Source: Mesorhizobium sp. 61-13
GTDB taxonomy: Bacteria; Pseudomonadota; Alphaproteobacteria; Rhizobiales; Rhizobiaceae
Direction of reading: 5' to 3'
DNA: 62,547 bases
Assembly (NCBI GenBank): GCA_001897075.1
Contig: MKRZ01000006.1
Location: 1 to 62,547 of the forward strand
A program made the position numbers and the translations under genes. The stretch's first letter is position 1; each line of letters opens with the position of its first letter. This document shows, in pieces, positions 6,161 to 54,166 of this stretch. The notes beneath the pieces were generated by a model that worked only from the letters and a program-made list of their open reading frames with translations, did no database searches and was not told where the DNA came from.

Positions 6161-6982
6161 CTAGTTTGCGATGCGTCGCGCGAACTCGGCCAGCGCCTTC
6201 TGGTAGATCGTTGCGCGGTTCCAGTCGTTCCAGACGCCATAATTGGCCTCACCCGGACCGTAGCCGCCACCCGCGCTCCAGCCATGGCCGCGGAGGAAAT
6301 TGGCAGTCGAGGCCAGCACGTCGGCGCGCGAGTGGATCAGGTCGCGGCGGCCGTCGCCGTCGAAATCAACCGCATATTGCAGGTACTTTGACGGCAGGAA
6401 CTGCGTCTGGCCGAGTTCGCCGAAGCCGGCGCCTTTCATCTGGGCCGCCGCAATGTAGCCCTTCTGGGCAATCTCGAGCGCCGAATCCAGTTCGTTGGTG
6501 AAGAACTCGGAGCGGCGGCAGTCATAGGCAAGCGTGGTCAGCGGGCCGAACACGCTCTTGTTGCCGGAATTGGCGCCGAAACCCGTCTCCATGCCCCAGA
6601 TCGCCAGCAGCACTTCGGGTTGCACGCCGAAGCGCGCTTCGATCTTGTTCAGCAGGCCCGCCTGGGATTTCATGTATCCCTTGGCCTTGCTGACATAGGA
6701 TGCCGGTGCCCGGCGCGCGAGGAACTGCTCGACCGTGCCCTTGAACGCCTTGTGCTGGCTGCGATCTATCCTTATGACCCCGGTATCGTATTTGACGCCT
6801 TTCATAGGCCCGGTGTCGATACCGCGCGCCTTCGCGTCGGCCTTGTAGTCTTCGACCCAGGCCCCGAAGCCGCTGCCATCATTGCCGCATTTGCCTGCGG
6901 CATGAGCCGCTGTGGTCATGACCAGCGCCCCCAGCGCCGCAGCAACAAAAAATCTGCCCTTGGCAAGACCTGCCATATTCAT
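6161..6982 (-). CDS. lytic murein transglycosylase (MltB-like)
   Basis: Signal peptide; ARFGVQPEVLLAIWGMETGFGANSGNKSVFGPLTTLAYDCRRSEFF...GELGQTQFLPSKYLQYAVDFDGDGRRDL. Confidence 0.88.
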   Translation of the reverse strand: MNMAGLAKGRFFVAAALGALVMTTAAHAAGKCGNDGSGFGAWVEDYKADAKARGIDTGPMKGVKYDTGVIRIDRSQHKAFKGTVEQFLARRAPASYVSKAKGYMKSQAGLLNKIEARFGVQPEVLLAIWGMETGFGANSGNKSVFGPLTTLAYDCRRSEFFTNELDSALEIAQKGYIAAAQMKGAGFGELGQTQFLPSKYLQYAVDFDGDGRRDLIHSRADVLASTANFLRGHGWSAGGGYGPGEANYGVWNDWNRATIYQKALAEFARRIAN

Positions 6983-7164
6983 CTCCTGATTGCCGGAATC
7001 ACATCCTGGACGCGAATTTGCCAGCGAAACTCGTGTTTGTCATCGCTCTTTGGCCCCGCCCCCGTCGCGAAGGCGGCTCTGTGTCTCACGAACACGCTCT
7101 AAATGTGGCAGCCCGCGCACTGCAGCACTTAACAATTCGTGAGATGCGCCAAGCTGGATTAGCC

Positions 7165-7189
7165 GGAACTAATGCTTGCCACCTCCGTT
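7165..7189 (+). promoter_or_regulatory. candidate EcfG (general stress sigma) promoter
   Basis: GGAAC-N16-CGTT (GGAACTAATGCTTGCCACCTCCGTT), 38 bp upstream of the ATG at 7228. Confidence 0.6.
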
Positions 7190-7227
7190 TGGCCCCACTG
7201 AGGGATAGTTCAAAACGGAGAGAAGAT

Positions 7228-7827
7228 ATGAAACCGCTCTTGCTGCCGATTGCCGGTGCCCTTGCCCTGTTTTCAGGAGCAGCACTCGCCGACACCTCGG
7301 TTTCCGCAGTAACCGACCTTAATGTTCGCGCCGGTCCCGGTCCCCAGTATCCGGTCACGGGCGTGCTCAAGGCCGGACAACCGGCAACGCTGACGGGATG
7401 CCTCGAAAACTCAAAATGGTGCACGATTGCCGAAGCAGGCGGACAAGGATGGGTCTATTCCGACTATGTAACCGCTGAATTCGCCGGCACCCGCGTCATC
7501 GTCACCCAAAGGCCGGCCGATGCCGGCATCGCTGTCGCACCGCCGCCAGCCGACGTCGGCCAATATCCGTCAACCTACACGTCCGCGATTGTTCCGGGCG
7601 AGCCGGTCGAGGTGATCGACGCGCCGCCACAGGCCGTGCGCACCTATGTAACGGAGCACTCGATGGAGCCTGTCTATCTCGACGGCGAAGTCGTGACGGG
7701 CTCCTCATTGCCGGACGATGTCGTGCTCGGGGAGATACCCGACTACAACTACCGCTACGTCTACGTAAACGGCCAACCCGCCTTGATCGACCCGGCGACC
7801 CGCCGCATCGTCTACGTGGTCCGGTAA
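7228..7827 (+). CDS. secreted SH3-domain protein (DUF1236-like C-terminus)
   Basis: Signal peptide, then bacterial SH3 motif VTDLNVRAGPGPQYPVTGVLKAGQPATLTGCLENSKWCTI...GWVYSDYV; C-terminal YVYVNGQPALIDPATRRIVYVVR. Confidence 0.75.
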   Translation: MKPLLLPIAGALALFSGAALADTSVSAVTDLNVRAGPGPQYPVTGVLKAGQPATLTGCLENSKWCTIAEAGGQGWVYSDYVTAEFAGTRVIVTQRPADAGIAVAPPPADVGQYPSTYTSAIVPGEPVEVIDAPPQAVRTYVTEHSMEPVYLDGEVVTGSSLPDDVVLGEIPDYNYRYVYVNGQPALIDPATRRIVYVVR

Positions 7828-41213: not shown

Positions 41214-42128
41214 ATGCCGAATGTTGCCATGTTTCGAAATGCCTATTTTCTCCTGCTGTTGACCACGCTGTTTTGGGCAGGAAATGCCGTTGCCGGCAAG
41301 ATGGCAGTCGGGCACGTTTCGCCCATGATCCTGACAGTGGCGCGCTGGGGTTTCACGGTCATTCTCCTGGCATTGGTGGGCTGGCGCCACCTCGTTGCCG
41401 ACTGGCTCGTGATCCGGAAGCGCTCCTGGTTTCTCCTCATCGCAGGAACGCTGGGTTTCACCCTGTTCAGCGTCGCCATGTACTGCGCATTGCTCTACAC
41501 CTCCGCAACCAATGTCAGCATCGAACAGGGCGGCATTCCGCTGGTCGTCTTCGTCACATCGTTCCTTCTGTTCAAGACCCGAACTACGCGCGGCCAGATA
41601 GTCGGATTCGCCCTCTCCTTCTGCGGCGTTATCGTTGCGGCCACGCATGGCGAGGTCGAGCGCCTCATTCACCTTGAAATGAATTTCGGCGACGCACTGA
41701 TGCTTGTCGCGATCACGACCCAGGGCATCTACACCGTCGTCCTGCGCCGCAAGCCACAGGTGCACTGGATAACGCTGATGGTTGGTTTGTGCATCGGCGC
41801 TTCCTTAAGCTCGGTGCCCTTCGTGGCGGCGGAAGCAGCCATTGGCGCCACGATCCTTCCCGACGCCAAAGGCTGGGCGATCATCGCTTACGTGGTCCTG
41901 TTTCCGTCCCTCATCGCACAAGCCACATACATTCGCGGCGTCGAACTGATCGGCGCAAACCGTGCCGGCCTGTTCATCAACTTCCTGCCACTATGGGGCG
42001 CGCTGCTGGCGGTCCTGCTCCTCGGCGAAGCATTTCAATTCTACCACGCGGTAGCATTGGTTCTGGTGCTTGGCGGCGTTTTGATCGCCGAACATAGCGG
42101 CCGCAAGATCGCAGCCTCGCATTCGTAA
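41214..42128 (+). CDS. DMT-family (EamA) transporter
   Basis: 10-TM EamA pattern: LLLLTTLFWAGNAVAGKMAVGHVSPMILTVARW... Confidence 0.87.
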   Translation: MPNVAMFRNAYFLLLLTTLFWAGNAVAGKMAVGHVSPMILTVARWGFTVILLALVGWRHLVADWLVIRKRSWFLLIAGTLGFTLFSVAMYCALLYTSATNVSIEQGGIPLVVFVTSFLLFKTRTTRGQIVGFALSFCGVIVAATHGEVERLIHLEMNFGDALMLVAITTQGIYTVVLRRKPQVHWITLMVGLCIGASLSSVPFVAAEAAIGATILPDAKGWAIIAYVVLFPSLIAQATYIRGVELIGANRAGLFINFLPLWGALLAVLLLGEAFQFYHAVALVLVLGGVLIAEHSGRKIAASHS

Positions 42129-42134
42129 CTTGAA

Positions 42135-42395
42135 TTACGCGCCGAATCCCATGCGCTTCAGCCAGGCTTTCCCGGCACCACGGTCGCGCACGATCGGCAA
42201 CGGATCTTCCGCGTCGAGCCTCGAGCAAATGCGATAGACCTCAAGCGTCTCCGCATCCATTTCACCGCGTTTGAAAAAGTACATCGCCGCAGCATAGCGG
42301 GAGCGCCCCGACCAAGGCTCGCCGAGCGGCGTGTTGATCAGCGCCCACTGTTCGACAGCCTCGTCATCAAGGGGTTTGCCGGCTTCGTCGGCCAT
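42135..42395 (-). CDS. small conserved hypothetical protein (86 aa)
   Basis: MADEAGKPLDDEAVEQWALINTPLGEPWSGRSRYAAAMYFFKRGEMDAETLEVYRICSRLDAEDPLPIVRDRGAGKAWLKRMGFGA; starts 2 bp after the stop of the upstream GcvT-like gene. Confidence 0.7.
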   Translation of the reverse strand: MADEAGKPLDDEAVEQWALINTPLGEPWSGRSRYAAAMYFFKRGEMDAETLEVYRICSRLDAEDPLPIVRDRGAGKAWLKRMGFGA

Positions 42396-42396
42396 G

Positions 42397-43629
42397 TCAA
42401 AAGTCCGCCGGAGGATTGGCGGTGCGACGGTCAAGCTTGATGAAAGGCCTCTGCACGACCTTCGCCCGCTTCATCAGCTTCTGGTACTGCAATTCGCGCA
42501 TGGCGTAGATTTCGACCCAGAGATCGTCGGTTATCGTATCCCCGAATGGCCTTTCGAGCGATGCCAGCGCGATGTTTTTCTTGGCCATGGGCGACCATAG
42601 CGCCGCGCTGACGAGCCCAACCTCCTTGTGCTTCTTGTGGTAGACGATGGCATGCTCGGCCGGCACGTTGCCCTCGATCTCCAGCCCGACAAGCACATGT
42701 CGCAACTTGCCCCGCGCCCTCGCCTCGAGGATAGCCCGACGGCCGTTGAAATGGCCCTTGGTCGCATCGACCATGAAGCCAAGGCCTATTTCGTCAGGCA
42801 TGCGCAGCCGGTTGGCGCGAATAGCGTGCTCGGAGGTTACGAAATCGGCGTTGGCGACAATCAGCCCGGCTTCGGTTCGGGCCCTGTTCAGCGCCGTATA
42901 GCCAATGGCGCGGACACCACGAAGCTCGCCTGCCTTGACCAGCCGATCCCACAGGCTGAGCGCCAAATCCCTTTCAACGAACAGCTCATAGCCGAGATCG
43001 CCGGTAAATCCTGTGCGCGAAATCACCACCTTGCCGCCTTCGTGATCGAACTCGGCAAGATCGAACACCTTAAGCTTTTCGACGCCGGCAAAGCCTGCCT
43101 CGCGAAGCACGGCAAAGGATGTCGGTCCCTGCAGCGCAAGGCCCGCAACCTGCTCGGTCTCCTCTTCGACCGAAACCTCAAATCCAACCGCGCTGTCGAG
43201 CAGCCATGGCAGATGGCGTTCCTGGCAACACAGCCGGAACCTGTCCGCGGAGAGGCGAAACAGCGTCCCGTCGTCCAGGACAAAACCTTCGTCGTCGCAC
43301 CAGGCGGTATAATGCACCCTGCCCGGCTTCAGCTTCGAAACGTCGCGCAAGGTCAAGCGGTTGAGGAACGCTTCGGCATCCGGTCCCTCGACCCGATACT
43401 TGGTCATCGGCGAAATGTCGAAAAGCGCAGCCTGGCTGCGGATGGCGAAGTATTCGAGTTCCTCGTCCCAAAGCGAATGCGGCGCCCGGTAACCTGCCCA
43501 GCTATACCAGTCGTCGGTCCTCGATAGTTCCGCAAGCCTCGGCTGGAACGGAGTATCGATCCGCCACGTGCTGAAATGTCCCTGCGCAGCGCGACGAAGC
43601 GCAACCTTGTCAGCTACCGTATCCATCAC
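42397..43629 (-). CDS. aminomethyltransferase (GcvT/DmdA)-like protein
   Basis: GYRAPHSLWDEELEYFAIRSQAALFDISPMTKYRVEGPDAEAFLNRLTLRDVSKLKPGRVHYTAWCDDEGFVLDDGTLFRL...SRTGFTGDLGYELFV...GLGFMVD. Confidence 0.85.
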   Translation of the reverse strand: MMDTVADKVALRRAAQGHFSTWRIDTPFQPRLAELSRTDDWYSWAGYRAPHSLWDEELEYFAIRSQAALFDISPMTKYRVEGPDAEAFLNRLTLRDVSKLKPGRVHYTAWCDDEGFVLDDGTLFRLSADRFRLCCQERHLPWLLDSAVGFEVSVEEETEQVAGLALQGPTSFAVLREAGFAGVEKLKVFDLAEFDHEGGKVVISRTGFTGDLGYELFVERDLALSLWDRLVKAGELRGVRAIGYTALNRARTEAGLIVANADFVTSEHAIRANRLRMPDEIGLGFMVDATKGHFNGRRAILEARARGKLRHVLVGLEIEGNVPAEHAIVYHKKHKEVGLVSAALWSPMAKKNIALASLERPFGDTITDDLWVEIYAMRELQYQKLMKRAKVVQRPFIKLDRRTANPPADF

Positions 43630-45197
43630 GCTTCCTTCCGCCTCTGCAATATCCGCCGTGCGGCATTCAGCCCCGGCGCCCCGGAGACGCCGCCGCCGGG
43701 GTGAGAACCGGCAGAGGCAAGATAAAGGCCCGCGATCGGCGTATCGTAGCCCGACCAGCCCGCAACCGGCCGCGAAACCAGCATCTGGTCGGCCTGCAAC
43801 TCACCATGATGCCAATGGCCACCGCGCATGTGATATCGGGCTTCGATATCAGCCGGGGTAAGAAGTTCGGCATGGCGAACCGTTCTGCCGATACCCGGAG
43901 CATAGGCCTCAAGCTGCGCCATGATAGCAACCTGGAACTTCGCCTTGCCGGTCTGCCAACCCTCCTTCAGCGCATAAGGCGCGTACTGGACGACCGCTGA
44001 AAGCACGCACGCGCCGTCGGGTGCAAGCGACGCATCGGAAAACGACGGCAAGGTGATTTCCATCACCGGTTCGGGCGAAAATTCGCCGTACTTCGATGGA
44101 TTGAAGGCGCGTTCGACATGGTTCGTCGAGGGCGCGATGACGAGACGACCCTTGTGCCTGGAGGCATCTAGGCCAGTGAACGCAGGCGGCGCGTCAAGCG
44201 CGAGATGGAGCTTGGCCGCATCGCCCTTCATGCGGATATTGCTGACCTTGCGCACGAAACCGGTATCGAGGTCACGCGGTCCAACCAGATCCAGGAAGGT
44301 CGTTGCCGGGTCCGTCGCCGAGATGACGATGGCGGCACCTATCTCCTCGCCTGTCTTGAGCACAACGCCGGTCGTACGACCGTTCTCGACAAGGATGCGC
44401 CCAACGGCGGCACCAGTGCGCAGCGTCACGCCAGCCTTGGCAGCCGCCGCTCCGATCGCCGATACGACCGCGCCCATGCCGCCTTCCGGCAAAAGCTGCG
44501 CCCCGGCTTCGCCTGCAATCTCACCCGCAAGGCGATAATACAAGCCGAGCAGCGATGTCGGCGAGCGCGGACCGAGATGCGCTCCGAGCACGGCATCGAA
44601 GGCAAGCAGACCTTTCAGCCGGTCATCCGACAACTGCTCGTCAAGCAGATCAGCCACGTTCATCAGAAGCACACGCAGGAAGTCGCGCATGTCTTCCTTG
44701 CCGAGACGCTTCAAGGCCAATGCCATCTGGCCAAGCGCGGCGGTTTCCCCGAGAGACAGGCCGCCGAGATCTGGCGGACGGCGCGACAGAAATGGCTTCA
44801 GAATATCCGCATAGCGCAGCAACTGGGCTCGCATCCCACGCCATGAGGTTTGTTCGGTGGCGCTGGCACCTGTGAGGCTCTCGCCATACGCCCCTTGCAG
44901 GATAAGCGGCGAGCCTACCTTCACAAGCGCGATTGAGGGAATGAAGGCGTCCCGCTTCAGACGCAGGCCATGCCGTTCAAGGTCCAGTTCCTTGACCACG
45001 TCTGGATGCAGCCGGTTCAAGACATGCGCAAGCGAGGACGTCCGGAAGCCCGGCGCGAACTCTTCCGTTCGGGCAGCGCCCCCAACCTCGGCCGCAGCCT
45101 CCAGCACCAGCACCTTGCGACCGCTCTTTCCAAGCAGTGCTGCCGCAACCAGGCCGTTGTGGCCACCGCCAACGACGATGCAATCAAATGATGTCAT
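43626..45197 (-). CDS. NAD(P)/FAD-dependent oxidoreductase, phytoene-desaturase-like (copy 1)
   Basis: FDCIVVGGGHNGLVAAALLGKSGRKVLVLEAAAEVGGAARTEEFAPGFRTSSLAHVL; C-terminal GLYLASAGSHPGGGVSGAPGLNAARRIL; 4-bp overlap with next gene. Confidence 0.88.
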   Translation of the reverse strand: MTSFDCIVVGGGHNGLVAAALLGKSGRKVLVLEAAAEVGGAARTEEFAPGFRTSSLAHVLNRLHPDVVKELDLERHGLRLKRDAFIPSIALVKVGSPLILQGAYGESLTGASATEQTSWRGMRAQLLRYADILKPFLSRRPPDLGGLSLGETAALGQMALALKRLGKEDMRDFLRVLLMNVADLLDEQLSDDRLKGLLAFDAVLGAHLGPRSPTSLLGLYYRLAGEIAGEAGAQLLPEGGMGAVVSAIGAAAAKAGVTLRTGAAVGRILVENGRTTGVVLKTGEEIGAAIVISATDPATTFLDLVGPRDLDTGFVRKVSNIRMKGDAAKLHLALDAPPAFTGLDASRHKGRLVIAPSTNHVERAFNPSKYGEFSPEPVMEITLPSFSDASLAPDGACVLSAVVQYAPYALKEGWQTGKAKFQVAIMAQLEAYAPGIGRTVRHAELLTPADIEARYHMRGGHWHHGELQADQMLVSRPVAGWSGYDTPIAGLYLASAGSHPGGGVSGAPGLNAARRILQRRKEA

Positions 45198-46803
45198 GGG
45201 CCGGGCTCATGTGAAGGCGGGGCTTGGCAAGATCGCGAAGAATTTCGGCGGCGGCATTTCGTCCGGGTGCGCCCATCACGCCGCCGCCGGGGTGGGTGGA
45301 CGAACCGCAGATGTAGAGCCCGCCGATCGGCGAACGGTATTGCGCATAGCCCGGTACCGGGCGGTTGAACAGCAACTGGTCGAAGGTGAGTTCGCCCTGG
45401 AAGATGTTCCCTTCCGTAAGGCCGACCTCGGCTTCCAGTTCACGCGGCGTGCGCACCTCCATGTGAACGATGCGGTCGCGGAAACCGGGCGAGTAGTCGG
45501 CGATCTGCGAAATCACCGATTCGGCAAAGCCGTCGCGGTCGGCATCGGTCCAATCGCGTCCCTCAATCTTTGGCGGCGCGTATTGCACGAAGCAGCTCAT
45601 GAAGTGCTTGCCCGGCGCAGTCATGGTTGGGTCGAGCGTGGTCGGGATCATCATGTCGAGGAATGGATCGGCGGACCAGCGGCCGGCCTTCCAGTCGTCA
45701 TATGCGCGCTCCATGCGCTCGACCGTATCGGTGAAATGAAGATCGCCGCGGTAGCAGGGTGAATTCTTGGGCAAAGCCGGAAACTCCGGCAACGAATCCA
45801 ACGCGATATTCACCTTCCCCGACGAGCCGCGGATCTTGAAGTTGCGCACGCGCCGCAGGAAGACATCCGGCAGGTCCTTGTCCTCGACCAATTTGAGAAA
45901 GGTCCGCTTTACGTCCGCATTGGAGACGACAACTTTGCCGTAGATCTCCTCGCCGCCGGCAAGAACGATGCCCTTTGCCTTGCCGCCCTTGACCAGCACG
46001 CGCTCGACCTCGGCGCCCGTCCTGATCGTTCCGCCCGAAGCCTCAAAGGAAGCGGCCAGCGCCTTGGTCACGGCTCCCATGCCGCCGCGCGCATAACCCC
46101 AGGCGCCGACAGAACCGTCGACCTCGCCCATGTAGTGATGCAAAAGCACGTAGGCGGTGCCGGGAGACATCGGCCCGAGCGCGGTGCCAATGATGCCGGA
46201 TATGGCGAAGTTCGCCTTGATGACATCGGTCTCGAAATACTCATCCAGGAAATCCGAGATCGACATCGTCCAGAAACGCAGCATCAGCGATATTTCTGCG
46301 GCGGAAAGTTCGCCGAACTTCCTGGCGAGATAGACAAGTTCGCCAAGGTCACGCGGCTTGAGGCTGGTCGGATCGGGCGCTGTGCGCATCAGCAAAGGCT
46401 GGATGAAGCGGCACTGCCGCGTCACGTCACGGGCATAGCGGTCATAGGCCTCCGCATCGCGCTTGGAGAAACGGGCGAATTCGCGCCTGTGCGCATCATG
46501 GTCGCGATAGTTGGCGAGATAGTCGCCGTCGCGGGTCAGCACCGCCCCGCCTTCATAGGAAATGACCTGCAGGCCGAAGCGCGGCAACTCCAGGTCGCGC
46601 ATGATCTCCGGGCGAAACAGCGAGCAGACATAGGAACAGTTTGAATAGGCAAAGCCCGGCGTCAGTTCCCGGCTGGTGGCGGCCCCACCAACCCAGCCAT
46701 TCTTTTCAACCACGAGGACCTCAAGGCCGGCGCGCTGCAGATAGCACGCATTGACCAGTCCGTTATGGCCGCCCCCGATGATAATCGCGTCCCAACTCTT
46801 CAT
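45184..46803 (-). CDS. NAD(P)/FAD-dependent oxidoreductase, phytoene-desaturase-like (copy 2)
   Basis: MKSWDAIIIGGGHNGLVNACYLQRAGLEVLVVEKNGWVGGAATSRELTPGFAYSNCSYVCSLF; C-terminal GGLYICGSSTHPGGGVMGAPGRNAAAEIL; start at 46803. Confidence 0.88.
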   Translation of the reverse strand: MKSWDAIIIGGGHNGLVNACYLQRAGLEVLVVEKNGWVGGAATSRELTPGFAYSNCSYVCSLFRPEIMRDLELPRFGLQVISYEGGAVLTRDGDYLANYRDHDAHRREFARFSKRDAEAYDRYARDVTRQCRFIQPLLMRTAPDPTSLKPRDLGELVYLARKFGELSAAEISLMLRFWTMSISDFLDEYFETDVIKANFAISGIIGTALGPMSPGTAYVLLHHYMGEVDGSVGAWGYARGGMGAVTKALAASFEASGGTIRTGAEVERVLVKGGKAKGIVLAGGEEIYGKVVVSNADVKRTFLKLVEDKDLPDVFLRRVRNFKIRGSSGKVNIALDSLPEFPALPKNSPCYRGDLHFTDTVERMERAYDDWKAGRWSADPFLDMMIPTTLDPTMTAPGKHFMSCFVQYAPPKIEGRDWTDADRDGFAESVISQIADYSPGFRDRIVHMEVRTPRELEAEVGLTEGNIFQGELTFDQLLFNRPVPGYAQYRSPIGGLYICGSSTHPGGGVMGAPGRNAAAEILRDLAKPRLHMSPAHDII

Positions 46804-46883
46804 TCCAGCCGACCTTCTGCTCGCGTGATCTGGCCCTGATTTATCCAAATTTGCCACGATCACCCCAATTTTGTCCAGCCATA

Positions 46884-46899
46884 TTGAATGAATGTTCAA
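46884..46899. promoter_or_regulatory. candidate TetR/BetI-type operator, site 1
   Basis: TTGAATGAATGTTCAA; reverse complement TTGAACATTCATTCAA matches site 2 (52670) at 14/16 positions; in divergent promoter region 46803(-)/46973(+). Confidence 0.7.
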
Positions 46900-46972
46900 C
46901 AAATGAGGTTGCGTTTTGCCGGGAATGCGCTAGCTTTCTTTTCGTCTGCGGGACTTGAAAATCTGTGATCCG

Positions 46973-47773
46973 ATGATCGAGACGGCAACGGCAGAACCAG
47001 AATATGACGACAGCGCCATCCGCTTTCTGGAGGCTCTGTGGGGTGAAGGATACCTGTCCCCCGGCGGGCCGGACGAGGTCGACCGGGTCGTTGATGGCCT
47101 GGACCTCAAGGGCAAGACCCTTCTCGATGTTGGATGCGGCGCCGGCGGCGTCACCTTGCATCTCCTCGAAGCGCATGGGCTTTCCGCAGTTACCGGCTTC
47201 GATGTCGAGTTGCCGGTCATAGAAGCCGCCCGCCGCCATGCCACCGAGCGCAAACTGTCCGGGCGCGCCAGCTTCGTGCAGGCTGCCCCCGGCGGCCTGC
47301 CATTTGCCGACAATTCGTTCGACATCGTCTTTTCCAAGGATGCCTTGCTGCACGTGCCCGACAAGGACGCGCTGTTTGCCGACATATTCCGGATCTTGAA
47401 GCCGGGCGGGGTGTTTGCCGCATCGAACTGGATGATCTCGCATGACGGCGAGCCGTCGCCCGAGATGAAGGCCTATATCGCCGCCGAGGGACTGTCCTTC
47501 GCCATGGCCTCGCCCGCGCGCTATTCGGAGGCGATGCGGCTGGCCGGCTTCACCGACATCGAGACGCGCGATCGAAACCCCTGGTATCGCGATGTGGCCA
47601 GAACCGAACTGGCGCGATTGAAGGGTCCCCTCTATGCGCGGGCGGCATCGGCCGTCGGCGCTGCCTATGTTGATAAGAACATCAAGACATGGGAAGCCAT
47701 GCAGGTAGTGCTTGACAGCGGCGAGCACCGTCCCACTCATCTGCGAGGGCGAAAGCCCGGCAGGACAGGATAG
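46973..47773 (+). CDS. class I SAM methyltransferase, phosphoethanolamine N-methyltransferase-like
   Basis: [49 protein letters not shown]...[39 protein letters not shown]...[19 protein letters not shown]. Confidence 0.82.
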
Positions 47774-47799
47774 CCGGAAATATGGAAGCGGCTCATCCG

Positions 47800-48492
47800 A
47801 TGAAGACAGCGGCAGTGGAAGAAGGTCTGGAAAACCCGGCCGCGAAGGCCGAACCTGAAAGACGCGGCCGTAAAGCGTCCAAGGAAGTGCGCCGCCTGCA
47901 GCTGATCGAAGCCACCATCGATTCACTCGCCAAGCGCGGTTACTCCGATACAACGATGGCGGATGTTGCCGATGGTGCGGGCCTGTCGCGCGGCATCGTC
48001 AACTTCCATTTCGAGAGCAAGGAAAAACTGCTGATCGCGACCTTGCAGCATATGTACGACGAATATGGCGCTCACTGGCGCGCCGCTCTCACCAAGGCTG
48101 GTGACGATCCGGCGCGGCGCCTGAAAGCACTCGTTACCGCCGATTTCGACCGCGCTGTCTGCAACAAGCGCAAGCTCGCCGCCTGGTGCGCCTTCTGGGG
48201 CGAAGCCAAGTCGAGGCCCACATACCAGGCCCTGAGCGGCGCGCGCGACCAGACCTACCAGGGCATTATCGTCGAGCTTTGCGCGAGCCTCAAGCAGCGG
48301 GCCGGCTACGGCTACGATGTGGAAGCGACAGCGCTCGCTTTGAGCGCCCTGCTCGAAGGACTGTGGCTCAGGCTGATGATCGGCGCAGAAGGTGTCACGC
48401 GCGAAACCGCGCTCACCTCGGCCTATGATTTCCTGGCTTCGGTATTTCCGGATCACTACCCGCGGGAGGCGGCAGACCGGAAAACGGCATAA
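47800..48492 (+). CDS. TetR-family transcriptional regulator, BetI-like
   Basis: N-terminal HTH LIEATIDSLAKRGYSDTTMADVADGAGLSRGIVNFHFESKEKLL; C-terminal AAWCAFWGEAKSRPTYQAL and ALSALLEGLWLRLMIG resemble BetI. Start may be 47782. Confidence 0.88.
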   Translation: MKTAAVEEGLENPAAKAEPERRGRKASKEVRRLQLIEATIDSLAKRGYSDTTMADVADGAGLSRGIVNFHFESKEKLLIATLQHMYDEYGAHWRAALTKAGDDPARRLKALVTADFDRAVCNKRKLAAWCAFWGEAKSRPTYQALSGARDQTYQGIIVELCASLKQRAGYGYDVEATALALSALLEGLWLRLMIGAEGVTRETALTSAYDFLASVFPDHYPREAADRKTA

Positions 48493-48513
48493 CACCAAAC
48501 AGAGGATGGAACG

Positions 48514-49596
48514 ATGAAGACGATTTCCCGACGTTTGACCCTGACGCTGGCTCTGGCGGGCTCTTTGGCCGCCTCGGTTGCCGCACTGGCGATAGCCGCA
48601 GACAACGAGCTTATTGTCTTCGACTGGTCAGGATATGAGGACCCTTCCTTCCATCAGAAATATCTCGACAAGAATGGCGATTCGCCGACATTCGCTTTCT
48701 TCGGCGATGAAGACGAAGCCTTCGAAAAGATCCGCTCCGGCTTCAAGGCCGACCTTGGCCATCCTTGCTCGCAAAGCGTCGTGAAATGGCGCGAGGCCGG
48801 TCTTCTGCAGCCGCTCGACACCTCGAAGATCACCGACTGGAACAGCCTGAACCCCGGCATCATGGCGATGAAGGACCTTGCCACGACAGCGGATGGCAAG
48901 GCCTGGTTCATGCCGTGGGACTGGGGCAACACGCTGGTGACATACAACACCGAAAAGGTCGACGAAAAGGACGTCCAGTCGCTGAAGGCCTTTGCCGATC
49001 CGAAATTTGAAGGCCGCGTCTCGATCGGCGACAACGTCGACGACGCCTATGCACTCGCCAGCCTTGTCCTCGGCATCAAGGACTGGACGACGATGACCGA
49101 CGACCAGTTCAAGCAGGCGTCCGACTTCCTGCGCAAAGTGCACAAGAACGTGCGGCTGTACTGGACGGATACGACCGATATCGTCCAGGCGCTGTCCGGC
49201 GGTGAAGTCGACCTTGCCTGGGCGTGGAATGATGCCGCGGTCCAGTCGATAGCGGCCGGCGCGCCGATCAAGTCGAAGAAGGATACCGACGAAGGCATTT
49301 CGACCTGGGTTTGCGGCTATGTTCTGTTCAAGGATGCGCCCGGCAACACCGACAAGGCCTACGACTACCTCAACGCCATCAACGACCCCGAAGTGGCAAA
49401 GGTGCTGGTCGGCGATTGGGGCTACGGCCAGGCCAACGCCAAGGGTATGGAGGCTGTCGATCCGCAGGTACTCAAGGAAAAGGGTTACGACGACGTCGGA
49501 AAATTCGTCGACAAGACGCTTTTCCAGTCGCCTGTTCCGTCCGACCTGAAGCTGAAAATGATTGCCGAATTCGAGAAGATCAAAGCCGGCTACTAA
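48514..49596 (+). CDS. polyamine-type (PotD/PotF-like) ABC transporter substrate-binding protein
   Basis: Signal peptide; ADNELIVFDWSGYEDPSFHQKYLDKNGDSPTFAFFGDEDEAFEKIRSGFKADLGHPCSQSVVKWREAGLLQPLDTSKI. Confidence 0.88.
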   Translation: MKTISRRLTLTLALAGSLAASVAALAIAADNELIVFDWSGYEDPSFHQKYLDKNGDSPTFAFFGDEDEAFEKIRSGFKADLGHPCSQSVVKWREAGLLQPLDTSKITDWNSLNPGIMAMKDLATTADGKAWFMPWDWGNTLVTYNTEKVDEKDVQSLKAFADPKFEGRVSIGDNVDDAYALASLVLGIKDWTTMTDDQFKQASDFLRKVHKNVRLYWTDTTDIVQALSGGEVDLAWAWNDAAVQSIAAGAPIKSKKDTDEGISTWVCGYVLFKDAPGNTDKAYDYLNAINDPEVAKVLVGDWGYGQANAKGMEAVDPQVLKEKGYDDVGKFVDKTLFQSPVPSDLKLKMIAEFEKIKAGY

Positions 49597-49616
49597 GAAG
49601 TAGCTGCTAGAATTGC

Positions 49617-49648
49617 CAGCCGGCCGGCGTACTGCCGGCCGGCATTTT
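49617..49648. terminator. hairpin terminator between convergent SBP and ABC ATPase genes
   Basis: GCCGGCCGGC-gtact-GCCGGCCGGCATTTT. Confidence 0.8.
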
Positions 49649-49658
49649 CAAACTGGCT

Positions 49659-50762
49659 TCAATCGGCCAGAGCCACCAAAGCCTCGGGATCGTAAGCCAG
49701 GCGGATCGATGAACCGACCGGAATATCGTCAGCACCGAAATCGTTGGTTTCGGTTACCGACAGCGGTTTTTCAAGGCCGGGTATCTCGACGATCAGGTGC
49801 GTGATCTCGCCAAAATAGTGGCGCTCCACCACTTTGCCGGAAACTTCGAATTTCGCGCTCGAATCATCCCAGAGCACACGCAGCCGTTCAGGCCGGATGC
49901 CGAGCGTCGCGCCGCTCCCGTTGCGAACAAAGGCCTTGGGCTTGTCGGTCTTGATCCGGCCGAAGCCGAGCGTGTCGACCAGCAAGGATGCGTTCTGCTC
50001 TTCGACGATTTCGGCCTTGACGAAATTCATGCCGCCGAGGAAGTCCGCCACCTGCCGATTGACCGGGCGTTGGTAGATTTCCTTCGGCGATGCGACTTGC
50101 GCAATGCGTCCGCCGAACATCACGGCGATACGATCCGACATCGCCAGCGCCTCGTACTGGTCGTGCGTCACCAGGACGAAGGTGATGCCCACCGCCTGCT
50201 GCAATCGCCTCAGTTCAACCTGCATCTGCTCGCGCAGTTTCTTGTCCAGCGCCGACAGCGGCTCGTCCAGCAAAAGCACCTTCGGACGCATAACAAGGGC
50301 GCGCGCCAAAGCCACGCGCTGCCGCTGACCCCCGGAAAGCTCGGTTGCGCCGCGCTTGCCGAGACCGTTCAGCGAAACCTGCCCCAGGGCTTCCTCTACC
50401 CGCCGCTTTTCCTCCGCAGAATCCAGCCTAAGCCGCTTCAGCCCATAGGCGACATTCTGCTCGACATTGAGGTGCGGGAAGATGGCGTAGCTCTGGAACA
50501 CCATGTTGGTCGGCCGCCGGTTGGCCGGGATGCCCTCCATTCTTTGCCCATCCACGGCAATGGTGCCGCTGGTCGGATTGTCGAAGCCCGCGATCATGCG
50601 AAGCAATGTGGTCTTGCCGCATCCGGAAGGTCCGAGCAGCGAGAAGAATTCGCCCTCCCTGATGACGAGATTGGCGTCGTCCAGCGCCTTGAATGCCCCA
50701 TAGCTGCGGGTGACATTGGTGATCTCGATCATGGGCCGATCGGCTACGGGGCGTTCAGGCAT
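49659..50762 (-). CDS. polyamine-type ABC transporter ATP-binding protein (PotA/PotG-like)
   Basis: [60 protein letters not shown]...[41 protein letters not shown]-terminal TOBE. Confidence 0.92.
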   Translation of the reverse strand: MPERPVADRPMIEITNVTRSYGAFKALDDANLVIREGEFFSLLGPSGCGKTTLLRMIAGFDNPTSGTIAVDGQRMEGIPANRRPTNMVFQSYAIFPHLNVEQNVAYGLKRLRLDSAEEKRRVEEALGQVSLNGLGKRGATELSGGQRQRVALARALVMRPKVLLLDEPLSALDKKLREQMQVELRRLQQAVGITFVLVTHDQYEALAMSDRIAVMFGGRIAQVASPKEIYQRPVNRQVADFLGGMNFVKAEIVEEQNASLLVDTLGFGRIKTDKPKAFVRNGSGATLGIRPERLRVLWDDSSAKFEVSGKVVERHYFGEITHLIVEIPGLEKPLSVTETNDFGADDIPVGSSIRLAYDPEALVALAD

Positions 50763-51582
50763 AAAGGCCTCCCTCATTGCTGGTCCGGCGCGCGGCGCGG
50801 CGGCGCAGGATCTCGGCGATCGACAACATGACGAAGGACAGAACAAGTAGCAGCGTGCCAAGCGCCAGCACGCCGGGCAGCTTGGCCGCAAACCGCAACT
50901 GTCCCCAGATATAGATCGGCAACGTTGCCTCCGTTCCGGTGAGGAAGAAGGCGATGATGAACTCGTCCAGCGAGATGGTGAAGGAAACCAGCAGGCTGGA
51001 GATGATGGCCGGCATCACCATCGGCAATGTCACGCGGCGAAACGTGCCAAAGGCGCTTTCACCCAGGTCGGCGGAAGCTTCCTCGAGACTTCGGTCGAAC
51101 CCTTCGAAACCGGAAATCAGCACCGTCATCGAATAGGGAATGCAGATCAGGACATGGCCGAGCACGACGGTGAACAGCGAAAGGCTGAGGCCCAGTTGCA
51201 ACATGACCAGCAGCATCGAAATGGCGACGATGATCTCCGGCAACACCAGCGGCGCCATGATCAGCCCGTTGATCGAGCGGCGGCCCGGAAACCGGTAGCG
51301 GGTTATGGCGCGCGCGGCGAGGATGCCCAGCGTCGTGGCGAGGACAGAGGCAGAAATGCCGACGATGAGACTGTTCCACGCAGCATCGAGCAATGCCGGC
51401 GTGTGTGGCAACTGCTCGTACCATTTCAGCGTATAGCCGGAGAGGGGGAATTTCGGTGTCGCAGCTGTGTTGACGGAAAAAATCGGCAGGAAGATTACCG
51501 GCAGGTAGAGGAACCCGACATAGATGGCTGCATAGGCGCCAAGCCAGGACCTGCCGGGTAGAAAGCGCCTCAACCCGCTCAT
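50755..51582 (-). CDS. polyamine-type ABC transporter permease (PotC/PotI-like)
   Basis: Multi-TM; LEEASADLGESAFGTFRRVTLPMVMPAIISSLLVSFTISLDEFIIAFFLTG. Confidence 0.9.
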   Translation of the reverse strand: MSGLRRFLPGRSWLGAYAAIYVGFLYLPVIFLPIFSVNTAATPKFPLSGYTLKWYEQLPHTPALLDAAWNSLIVGISASVLATTLGILAARAITRYRFPGRRSINGLIMAPLVLPEIIVAISMLLVMLQLGLSLSLFTVVLGHVLICIPYSMTVLISGFEGFDRSLEEASADLGESAFGTFRRVTLPMVMPAIISSLLVSFTISLDEFIIAFFLTGTEATLPIYIWGQLRFAAKLPGVLALGTLLLVLSFVMLSIAEILRRRAARRTSNEGGLYA

Positions 51583-52571
51583 CTCGCCATCCTCGCTGCC
51601 GAGCGGATGATGAAGACGCTGGCCAGCGCCATCATCGTGACGATGACCATCGTAGTGACCGAGAGCGCAGCACCCAGCGGCCAGTTGGCGGCCTTGCCGA
51701 ATTGAACCTGGATGGCATTGGCGATCATCACCCCATCCTTGCCGCCGACCAGCTTAGGCGTCACATAGTCGCCGACGGTCGGGATCATGACGATGAGAAG
51801 CGCCGCGATCACGCCAGGAATGGAAAGAGGCAGCGTTACGCGCAGGAACGAGCGCAGCGGGCCGTCGCCGAGGTCGGTCGCGGCTTCGACCAGCGTACGG
51901 TCGGCCTTTTCCAGCGAGACGAAGATCGGCAGGATGGCGAAGGCCGCCCACGCATGGGTCAGCGTGATGATGACGGCGCTCGAATTGTAAAGCAGCGCCG
52001 TCGACGGTTCATCGATGATGCCAAGCCCCATCAGGCCGGAATTGAGCACGCCATTGTAGCCAAGGATCACCTTCCAGGCCATCACGCGCAACAGGTAGCT
52101 GGTCCAGAACGGTATGGTGATGAGGAACAACCACAAACCCTTGTGGCGGCCGCCATGGAACGAGATGAAGTAGGCGATGGGATAGGCAAACACCACCGTC
52201 AGGAAACTCACCGTCAGCGAGATGTAGAGCGATCGCCACAACAGGTCGCGGTAGATCGGCTCCGTCAGCGCAATGCGGTAATTCTCCAGCGTAAAGGTGC
52301 GGTCGATCGTGAGGTAGTGTTGCGTCCAGAACGAATGCGCGATGACCACGATGATCGGCGCCAGCAGGAAGACCACCGCGTAGAGAAAGGTCGGGCTGAT
52401 CAGTCCAAGACCTTGAACGGCTTCCGATTGCAGAAGAACATCGCGGCGGGCTCGTTTCGATCCGAGCCTTGGGCTGTCTTCCACAGCCGCCGTCACGGCA
52501 AAACCCCGCGAAGGGCTTCGGGTGCGTATGCAGTCGCCGGCCTGGACTTGCCTGCCATGCTGCCATCCCAT
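51579..52571 (-). CDS. polyamine-type ABC transporter permease (PotB/PotH-like)
   Basis: Multi-TM; LVEAATDLGDGPLRSFLRVTLPLSIPGVIAALLIVMIPTVGDYVTPKLVGG; 4-bp overlap with next permease; N-terminus may start internally. Confidence 0.9.
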   Translation of the reverse strand: MGWQHGRQVQAGDCIRTRSPSRGFAVTAAVEDSPRLGSKRARRDVLLQSEAVQGLGLISPTFLYAVVFLLAPIIVVIAHSFWTQHYLTIDRTFTLENYRIALTEPIYRDLLWRSLYISLTVSFLTVVFAYPIAYFISFHGGRHKGLWLFLITIPFWTSYLLRVMAWKVILGYNGVLNSGLMGLGIIDEPSTALLYNSSAVIITLTHAWAAFAILPIFVSLEKADRTLVEAATDLGDGPLRSFLRVTLPLSIPGVIAALLIVMIPTVGDYVTPKLVGGKDGVMIANAIQVQFGKAANWPLGAALSVTTMVIVTMMALASVFIIRSAARMAR

Positions 52572-52669
52572 TGGTCATGCGGTTGCCCGTTCTGCGTGAG
52601 CTTGCCCGCTGTCATCCAATCATGAGCGCATCCGACGATTGAAATCAAGCGCTATTTCTGCCATATTGA

Positions 52670-52685
52670 TTGAACAGACATTCAA
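52670..52685. promoter_or_regulatory. candidate TetR/BetI-type operator, site 2
   Basis: TTGAACAGACATTCAA; 14/16 match to reverse complement of site 1; in divergent promoter region 52571(-)/52748(+). Confidence 0.7.
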
Positions 52686-52747
52686 AATGAAGTGACGACA
52701 AGGCCCAAACCGGCGGTAAGCCGGGCGGGACCGAAAGCGAGGCAGCA

Positions 52748-54166
52748 ATGGCGGCATTACGCGACTTATCGATGGATCAGGCCGGTGGCAGCGAAGAACC
52801 GGAGGCCGTCGAGCAGGCGAAACGCCACCTTGTCCAGCCTTGGCCGTATGCCGGTTCCGTTGGCGAGGAAGCCCGCGCCCTGATCGGCGAAGGCGATGGC
52901 ATCTACATCACCGATAGCACCGGCAAAAAGCTGATCGACGGCCCTGCCGGCATGTGGTGCATCAATATCGGCCATCGCCGCGAAGAACTGGCCCGCGTGA
53001 TGTACGACCAGGCCATGCAGCTTTGCTACAACACGCCATGGTACACGATGAACGCGCCATCGGCCGAACTTGCAGAGCGCATCGCTTCCCACGCACCCGG
53101 TGACCTCAATCATGTCTTCTACACCACCGGCGGTTCGTCGGCAGTGGAGACGGCGCTACGTTTCATGCAGTTTTACAACAACGTGCGCGGACGGCCGGAA
53201 AAGAAGCTGATCCTCAGCCGTGGCGGCGCCTATCATGGTTCCACCTACCTTTCGGCCTCGCTGAATGGACGACCGCGTGACTGGGACTGGATGGACGGCG
53301 CCGAAGAACTGGTCGTCAAGCTGACGTCGCCCGACCCGTTCCGCCGGCCAAAGGGCATGACGACGGAGGCGTTCAGCGACTTCCTCGTGGACGAATTCAG
53401 GGCGACGGTAGCGCGCGTCGGAGCCGAACGCATCGGCGCTTTCGTCGGCGAACCGGTTCAGGCTTCCGGCGGCGTCATCATACCGCCGGACAACTATCTG
53501 CAGCGCATCCGCGAAATCTGCCGCGCCAACGATATCCTCTACGTATCGGACGAGGTGGTGACCGCCTTTGGTCGTCTCGGTCACGTCTTCGCTTCGGGCG
53601 ATGTGTTCGGCCTCGACCCCGACATGATCACCTTTGCCAAGGGCGTCACCTCCGGCTATTTCCCGCTCGGCGGGGTGGTGATTTCCGAACGCCTGCTTCA
53701 GGATTTGCGCCGCTCAAACCATCCCGATGCGCTGTTCGGCCATGGCCTTACCTATACCAGTCATCCCATTGGCTGCGCGGTGGCGCTCAAGAACCTCGAT
53801 ATCCTCGAGGAGAGCGTTCTCGCTCATACCCGAAGCATCGCGCCGTACTTTCAGGCTCGGTTGAAGACGCTGGAAGAGTTGCCTCTGGTGGGCGAAGTGC
53901 GCGGTCTCGGCCTGATGGGTTGTGTCGAATGCGTGGCCGACCGCGAAAGCAAGAATGCGCTGCAACTCGACAAGAATGTCGGAGCGCGCATCGACGCGCA
54001 TTGCCACGAACTCGGCCTGCTGGTGCGGCCACTGATCAACATGTGCGTGATGTCGCCGCCGTTGACCATCACCCGCGAGCAGATCGACGACATGGTGGCG
54101 ATCCTGCGCGAAGGCATTTCGCGCACCATGGACGACCTGCGCAAGGAAGGCGTTTGGCAGGGCTGA
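52748..54166 (+). CDS. class III PLP-dependent aminotransferase (aspartate aminotransferase family protein)
   Basis: GEGDGIYITDSTGKKLIDGPAGMWCINIGHRREELARVMYDQ...FYTTGGSSAVETALRF...LYVSDEVVTAFGRLGHVFAS...ITFAKGVTSGYFPLGGVVIS. Confidence 0.92.
   Translation: MAALRDLSMDQAGGSEEPEAVEQAKRHLVQPWPYAGSVGEEARALIGEGDGIYITDSTGKKLIDGPAGMWCINIGHRREELARVMYDQAMQLCYNTPWYTMNAPSAELAERIASHAPGDLNHVFYTTGGSSAVETALRFMQFYNNVRGRPEKKLILSRGGAYHGSTYLSASLNGRPRDWDWMDGAEELVVKLTSPDPFRRPKGMTTEAFSDFLVDEFRATVARVGAERIGAFVGEPVQASGGVIIPPDNYLQRIREICRANDILYVSDEVVTAFGRLGHVFASGDVFGLDPDMITFAKGVTSGYFPLGGVVISERLLQDLRRSNHPDALFGHGLTYTSHPIGCAVALKNLDILEESVLAHTRSIAPYFQARLKTLEELPLVGEVRGLGLMGCVECVADRESKNALQLDKNVGARIDAHCHELGLLVRPLINMCVMSPPLTITREQIDDMVAILREGISRTMDDLRKEGVWQG

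Follow-up and report, generated by a model that had tools for sequence, protein, structure and literature searches.

A probable regulon for catabolism of a quaternary or N-methylated amine, under a BetI-like TetR, in Mesorhizobium and other Alphaproteobacteria

In heterotetrameric sarcosine oxidase (SoxBDAG) and in dimethylglycine dehydrogenase, flavoproteins carry out N-demethylation in concert with a GcvT domain, which captures the formaldehyde on tetrahydrofolate (THF), and a small protein is encoded in the same operon. The locus considered here lies in a 62,547-nucleotide stretch of the genome of Mesorhizobium sp. 61-13 (contig MKRZ01000006.1; the whole stretch is called the window below), and in it the genes for two flavin adenine dinucleotide (FAD)-dependent oxidoreductases, FAD2 and FAD1, are followed by those for a GcvT-like protein and a small conserved protein. 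Unlike SoxBDAG and dimethylglycine dehydrogenase/oxidase, it has GcvT as a separate protein, and where SoxBDAG has the DAO-type SoxB it has two flavoproteins of the CrtI/amine-oxidase type. In another described system, trimethylamine N-oxide (TMAO) demethylase (Tdm), the GcvT domain is the nearest characterised relative of our GcvT-like protein, but the N-terminal half of Tdm is absent here and two flavoprotein genes adjoin instead. Together with genes for a BetI-like TetR regulator, a substrate-binding protein (SBP), an ATP-binding cassette (ABC) transporter and an aminotransferase, we think it probable that this set forms a catabolic regulon, controlled by the TetR, for a quaternary or N-methylated amine. 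More tentatively, and with rather more doubt than conviction, we propose that FAD2, FAD1, GcvT and the small protein might constitute a new multi-subunit THF-dependent N-demethylase in which two flavoproteins of CrtI/amine-oxidase fold replace the DAO-type flavoprotein of sarcosine oxidase, acting downstream of a group V-like Rieske oxygenase within an undescribed pathway of betaine catabolism in rhizobia and other Alphaproteobacteria.

The constancy of the FAD2-FAD1-GcvT trio is the first observation to be considered. One scan of genome contigs gave 80 loci (Mesorhizobium, Phyllobacterium, Rhizobium, Shinella, Ciceribacter, Roseibium, Oricola and others), whole-genome searches added other alphaproteobacterial families, a further 30 loci were compared, and 37 genomes entered a comparison of congeners. 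The set is thus one conserved in bacteria of soil and root nodules; laboratory strains that carry the locus include M. loti DSM 2626 (L091) and M. amorphae CCNWGS0123 (L077). FAD2 and FAD1 are adjacent and on the same strand in 80/80 and 30/30 loci (110/110) across alphaproteobacterial families, and GcvT comes next after the pair in 77/80 and 26/30; the loci without a scored GcvT mostly lie on short or cut contigs, and two of them (L170 and L193) have GcvT past the distance limit. The small protein gene follows that of GcvT in 75 of the 80. Among the congeners FAD2 and GcvT occupy an identical set of 27/37 genomes, and the same seven records of a plasmid collection contain GcvT and those FAD2 homologues that are closer (>60% identity). 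Matches in a phylum-wide sample are confined to the class Alphaproteobacteria; the FAD2 proteins of the window strain and of Mesorhizobium sp. Root552 (L056) share 99% identity, and FAD1 evolves faster than FAD2. An initial annotation, made from the window sequence, had named co-occurrence of the locus genes in relatives as one check on its proposal of an amine utilisation locus, and the loci and congener counts show that the genes do co-occur.

The second observation is a shared operator-like sequence. An unsupervised search for dyads common to both divergent intergenic regions of the locus returned TTGAA-N6-TTCAA, refined to the pattern TTGAAYRNNYRTTCAA, of which the window holds two exact copies, one in each divergent promoter. 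Since 0.08 copies are expected and 0/100 shuffles reach two, chance does not explain the pair. The organism's 3.9-Mb genome contains three exact copies in all, and the third, on contig C105, precedes a Rieske oxygenase gene by 18 bp, counted from a start codon placed by comparison with the Shinella protein. With up to one mismatch allowed, the dyad precedes FAD2 in 75/80 loci, the aminotransferase/permease pair in 71/71 and the Rieske gene in 16/16; 169 such sites occur across the 80 loci, seven of them falling outside these three positions. Seven one-mismatch sites elsewhere in the genome (L224-L230), most of them in or at the ends of unrelated open reading frames, were judged to be chance occurrences rather than regulon sites. 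In the 37 congeners the dyad, the TetR gene and the Rieske gene are all present in the same 29 and all absent from the same 8, a coincidence of 1 in 38.6 million by chance if relatedness is ignored; a reversed-pattern control gave almost no matches. Because of this shared set of 29 genomes the TetR is the best candidate for binding the dyad, and we predict that the locus, the distant Rieske gene included, is one jointly controlled regulon. The shared regulator that had been suggested for the transcription units fits this operator evidence.

A TetR of BetI type with a dyad operator recalls the BetI regulon, which governs the conversion of choline to glycine betaine. The locus differs from it in that a true BetI is encoded separately, on contig C216 (243 bits), and in that Pfam and NCBIfam scans of the locus genes found no betA or betB, as had been noted from the start. 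We rejected the identification of the locus TetR as BetI itself, because it scores 132 bits with the BetI model TIGR03384 (cut-off 201) and the true BetI is elsewhere; it passes the broader PRK00767 (129 bits, cut-off 118) and is best classed as a BetI paralogue.

Annotated relatives carry a gene for the alpha subunit of a Rieske oxygenase next to the aminotransferase gene or within the cluster, and its orthologue in the window strain is the C105 gene (L208, G000:C105:1-14000; 6388-7509, minus strand). This C105 gene, unlike that of many relatives, is near a different ABC transporter, and it keeps the same operator-like dyad. Among the congeners the Rieske gene is present in 27/27 FAD2-positive and 2/10 FAD2-negative genomes (hypergeometric 1.2e-6, relatedness ignored). 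As the Rieske oxygenase of the set is encoded elsewhere in the genome, the pathway would extend beyond the locus; the initial annotation was right that the locus is real, and missed this component outside the window. The closest solved relatives of the protein are the carnitine oxygenase CntA and, slightly lower, the stachydrine demethylase Stc2 (4qup), and its best NCBIfam model, below cut-off, is the glycine betaine monooxygenase GbcA. These group V oxygenases are its best sequence relatives, but it scores only about 100-140 bits with any of them. As in group V, the CxH/CxxH motifs and the bridging Glu are present (CRHR...CPFH and VDNEGYHVAMAHP, in the C105 protein and its orthologues), the Glu aligning with CntA E205; both features have been described for CntA (PMC7948474, PMC10952381).

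The kinship with Stc2 also raises the alternative that the substrate is an N-methylated ring compound like homarine, trigonelline or stachydrine, whose ring or ring N-methyl group would be the target of the Rieske and FAD enzymes. Such an alternative gains from the recent description of homarine catabolism, which, according to the work as cited in PMC13390433, is conserved in environmental bacteria and involves the N-methylglutamate dehydrogenase Mgd. In the locus, however, no ring-cleavage or Mgd genes were identified, and a ring compound would not obviously require a class III aminotransferase or a PotD-type SBP, so that we rate this alternative as unlikely.

The AlphaFold model of FAD2 (predicted local distance difference test, pLDDT, 86) predicts a carotenoid-desaturase/amine-oxidase (CrtI) type of fold, its nearest folds being carotenoid desaturases followed by nicotine, monoamine and putrescine oxidases, and the best NCBIfam matches of both FAD proteins are to CrtO/CrtI carotenoid families. 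One could suppose from this that the pair catalyses a carotenoid-like desaturation, with unrelated neighbours that came under a common regulator by chance. Yet the scores fall far below the cut-offs, FAD2 and FAD1 reaching 302 and 211 bits with NF045689 (cut-off 1000) and 125 and 116 bits with TIGR02734 (cut-off 238); no carotenoid genes were seen nearby, GcvT is the constant neighbour of the pair, and the set has a common operator and is co-inherited. We consider a carotenoid role extremely improbable. The soxB model likewise gives FAD2 22 bits against a cut-off of 529.

The GcvT-like protein is closest to the C-terminal, THF-binding GcvT domain of Tdm: it scores 257 bits with the TMAO demethylase model (cut-off 1100), over the C-terminal part only of a two-domain model protein of ~760 aa, the stretch DDGTLFR is common to both, and its top PDB matches are 9q5a and 9q59. 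The GcvT fold and the DD motif are present, and the position of R227 in the Thermotoga maritima protein is Leu, as in Tdm. It falls short of the models for the glycine cleavage T protein (TIGR00528, 161.5 bits, cut-off 235.9), soxA (148 bits, cut-off 1164) and DmdA (PRK12486, 131.7 bits, cut-off 410).

The small protein, with 28 aligned homologues and 18 invariant columns, is for that reason taken to be the product of a real gene. Its AlphaFold model is all-helical (pLDDT 79), and a fold search of the PDB with this model gave no match; it may be a small subunit. Over 60 aa it is 45% identical to the N-terminus of a DMSP_lyase-type cupin protein of Fuscovulum ytuae (L028:24647-25498), a similarity that possibly hints at its role. 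This homology and the resemblance of the GcvT-like protein to DmdA would suit catabolism of a sulfonium compound, dimethylsulfoniopropionate (DMSP) or one like S-methylmethionine, with a DmdA-like GcvT. Nevertheless the DmdA score (132 against 410) is far under its cut-off, the cupin occurs in only two loci, and DmdA is not known to need a flavoprotein, yet here FAD2-FAD1 is invariant; a sulfonium substrate thus seems very unlikely.

The transporter bears on the class of substrate. The SBP matches, over its whole length, the PotD model (E 9e-28, score 97, cut-off 582) and the PotD chain (1e-25), which places it in the PotD/PotF fold family, and the transporter shares protein families and fold with PotFGHI and PotABCD. 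A reader of these families alone might take the system to be one for uptake and catabolism of a putrescine- or spermidine-like polyamine, especially as the aminotransferase family includes polyamine:pyruvate transaminases and the structural neighbours of FAD2 include putrescine oxidase, so that the FAD enzymes would be polyamine oxidases. The ligand site speaks otherwise. In PotD the acidic residues that bind the amine groups are D168, E171 and D257 (PotD numbering); in the locus SBP and all of its close homologues (134/134 at >=45% identity) these are N, D and C. The locus SBP keeps the aromatic residues aligned with PotD W34, Y37, W229 and W255. With D168 and D257 replaced and the aromatic box retained, the ligand would probably not be a polyamine, and a quaternary ammonium compound would suit. 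On these changed residues we rejected an ordinary polyamine transporter, and the PotF-type specificity that had been assumed finds no support. Since in addition the SBP score is far from the PotD cut-off, neither GcvT nor a Rieske oxygenase is known to take part in the catabolism of polyamines, and the regulator is BetI-like, the polyamine alternative is in our view improbable. In many relatives (L045, L057 and many Mesorhizobium loci) a second SBP gene, ~64% identical, stands in tandem with the first; the window strain has one.

The methyltransferase had been read as like a phosphoethanolamine N-methyltransferase (PMT) and as a part of the pathway. We discarded this assignment: no PMT model is among its 25 best NCBIfam matches, the best being DVU_1556 and sarcosine/dimethylglycine N-methyltransferase, both below cut-off, and the gene is missing from 14/80 loci. 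As only 66/80 carry it, it is accessory and the locus can do without it.

We infer a reaction order, a complex, a substrate class and the individual catalytic steps as follows. The PotD-fold SBP and the ABC transporter would take up a quaternary or N-methylated amine, and the Rieske oxygenase under the same operator would carry out the first N-demethylation. The N-methyl groups still present would then be oxidised by FAD2 and FAD1, probably in complex with GcvT and perhaps also with the small protein, and GcvT would pass the methyl carbon to THF, giving 5,10-methylene-THF; this oxidation with capture of the carbon is proposed by analogy with sarcosine oxidase. Finally, the class III aminotransferase would remove a primary amine either freed by demethylation or already present in the substrate. 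Most likely as substrates are trimethylammonium compounds whose demethylation leaves an omega-amine, such as gamma-butyrobetaine, other omega-amino acid betaines and trimethyl-lysine-type compounds. Four features thus speak for use of a quaternary or N-methylated amine, as first suggested: the GcvT-like protein, the BetI-like TetR, the aromatic box of the SBP and the linked Rieske oxygenase of CntA/stachydrine oxygenase kin, while two of its original supports, PMT and PotF-type specificity, fall away.

Several observations weigh against this pathway and need to be kept in view. The carotenoid-type family matches of both FAD proteins are one, and the methyltransferase, for which demethylation offers no obvious function, is another. 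Neither a downstream aldehyde dehydrogenase nor a Rieske reductase was identified in the locus. The Rieske protein also differs from group Va in lacking the CxxC pair, replaced by Gly and Val, and the pi-cation Tyr/Phe, with Asp at the position of CntA Y203. Moreover, the three genomes L197, L200 and L201, from a single genus of another family, have the trio without the regulator, transporter and aminotransferase, and one congener (G005, L209) keeps TetR, dyads, transporter, aminotransferase and Rieske gene and lacks the FAD/GcvT trio; because these genomes split them, the trio and the remaining modules can function apart. In these three the trio has as neighbours a gene of glutamate-ammonia ligase adenylyltransferase type and, at the opposite end, one for a sigma-70 factor, as annotated in L200. 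In another congener (G017, L213) TetR, dyad and Rieske gene are kept, with a stop codon in the Rieske frame, and the trio is absent.

Outside rhizobia the trio is kept and the neighbours differ, with a glutamate-1-semialdehyde-aminomutase-like aminotransferase in place of the PRK07036 type; in the Fuscovulum version two Rieske genes, an amidohydrolase and the DMSP_lyase-type cupin can join it. On a plasmid of Shinella sumterensis (L032, 9995-12746) a single FAD2 relative (41%) adjoins gcvT, in a neighbourhood with genes for 3-hydroxyacyl-CoA dehydrogenase and 3-keto-5-aminohexanoate (beta-keto-acid) cleavage, of the kind used for carnitine-like betaines, which is suggestive of another betaine pathway.

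The arrangement of the locus in the window, 11 genes around two divergent promoters by translation and Pfam/NCBIfam scans, is given in Table 1. The gene list, families, strands and coordinates of the initial annotation stand, as does its remark that the SBP gene and the ATPase/permease genes form opposite, convergent units. We set the flanks outside the locus: an EamA gene at 41214-42128, found at 1/80 loci, and amino-acid ABC genes from 54182 onward.

Table 1. Genes and operator-like dyads of the locus, with positions in the window.
Feature	Position	Strand	Remarks
Small conserved protein	42135-42395	(-)	About 86-87 aa; no Pfam/NCBIfam family; last gene in the FAD2 operon
GcvT-like protein	42397-43629	(-)	GCV_T and GCV_T_C domains; family scans
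FAD oxidoreductase 1 (FAD1)	43626-45197	(-)	CrtI/amine-oxidase type; family scans
FAD oxidoreductase 2 (FAD2)	45184-46803	(-)	CrtI/amine-oxidase type; family scans, AlphaFold model
Operator-like dyad TTGAATGAATGTTCAA	46884-46899	none	Between FAD2 and methyltransferase genes
S-adenosylmethionine-dependent methyltransferase	46955-47773	(+)	Accessory; ATG start possibly 46973
BetI-like TetR regulator	47782-48492	(+)	BetI-type C-terminal domain; proposed dyad binder
PotD/PotF-fold SBP	48514-49596	(+)	Ligand residues altered
ABC transporter ATPase, PotA type	49659-50768	(-)	Start approximate
ABC transporter permease, PotC/PotI type	50755-51582	(-)	Family scans
ABC transporter permease, PotB/PotH type	51579-52571	(-)	Start approximate
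Operator-like dyad TTGAACAGACATTCAA	52670-52685	none	Between permease operon and aminotransferase
Class III aminotransferase	52748-54166	(+)	NCBIfam PRK07036, over cut-off

The component families are all known, and it is their arrangement and the regulon that appear to be undescribed. No pathway that matches came out of literature searches on homarine, Rieske and quaternary amines, trimethyllysine, butyrobetaine, and clusters of phytoene-dehydrogenase/aminomethyltransferase or GcvT demethylase type, the 2026 homarine pathway lying outside the comparison, and a 2023 paper on Micromonas exometabolites does not mention homarine. Within that literature, then, the gene combination has no match, and the initial description of the locus as a candidate for an undescribed one can be kept.

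Methylated amines from plants sustain root-nodule bacteria, and among the transporters and oxidoreductases of these bacteria are many to which no substrate has been assigned. In the present case the sequence by itself is enough to define a closed regulon with a regulator, an operator, a transporter, an oxygenase, a demethylase core and an aminotransferase. If our view of the core is true, THF-dependent demethylation would gain a flavoprotein architecture, and a function could be given to the 'NAD(P)/FAD-dependent oxidoreductase' and 'aminomethyltransferase family protein' annotations in many Alphaproteobacteria.

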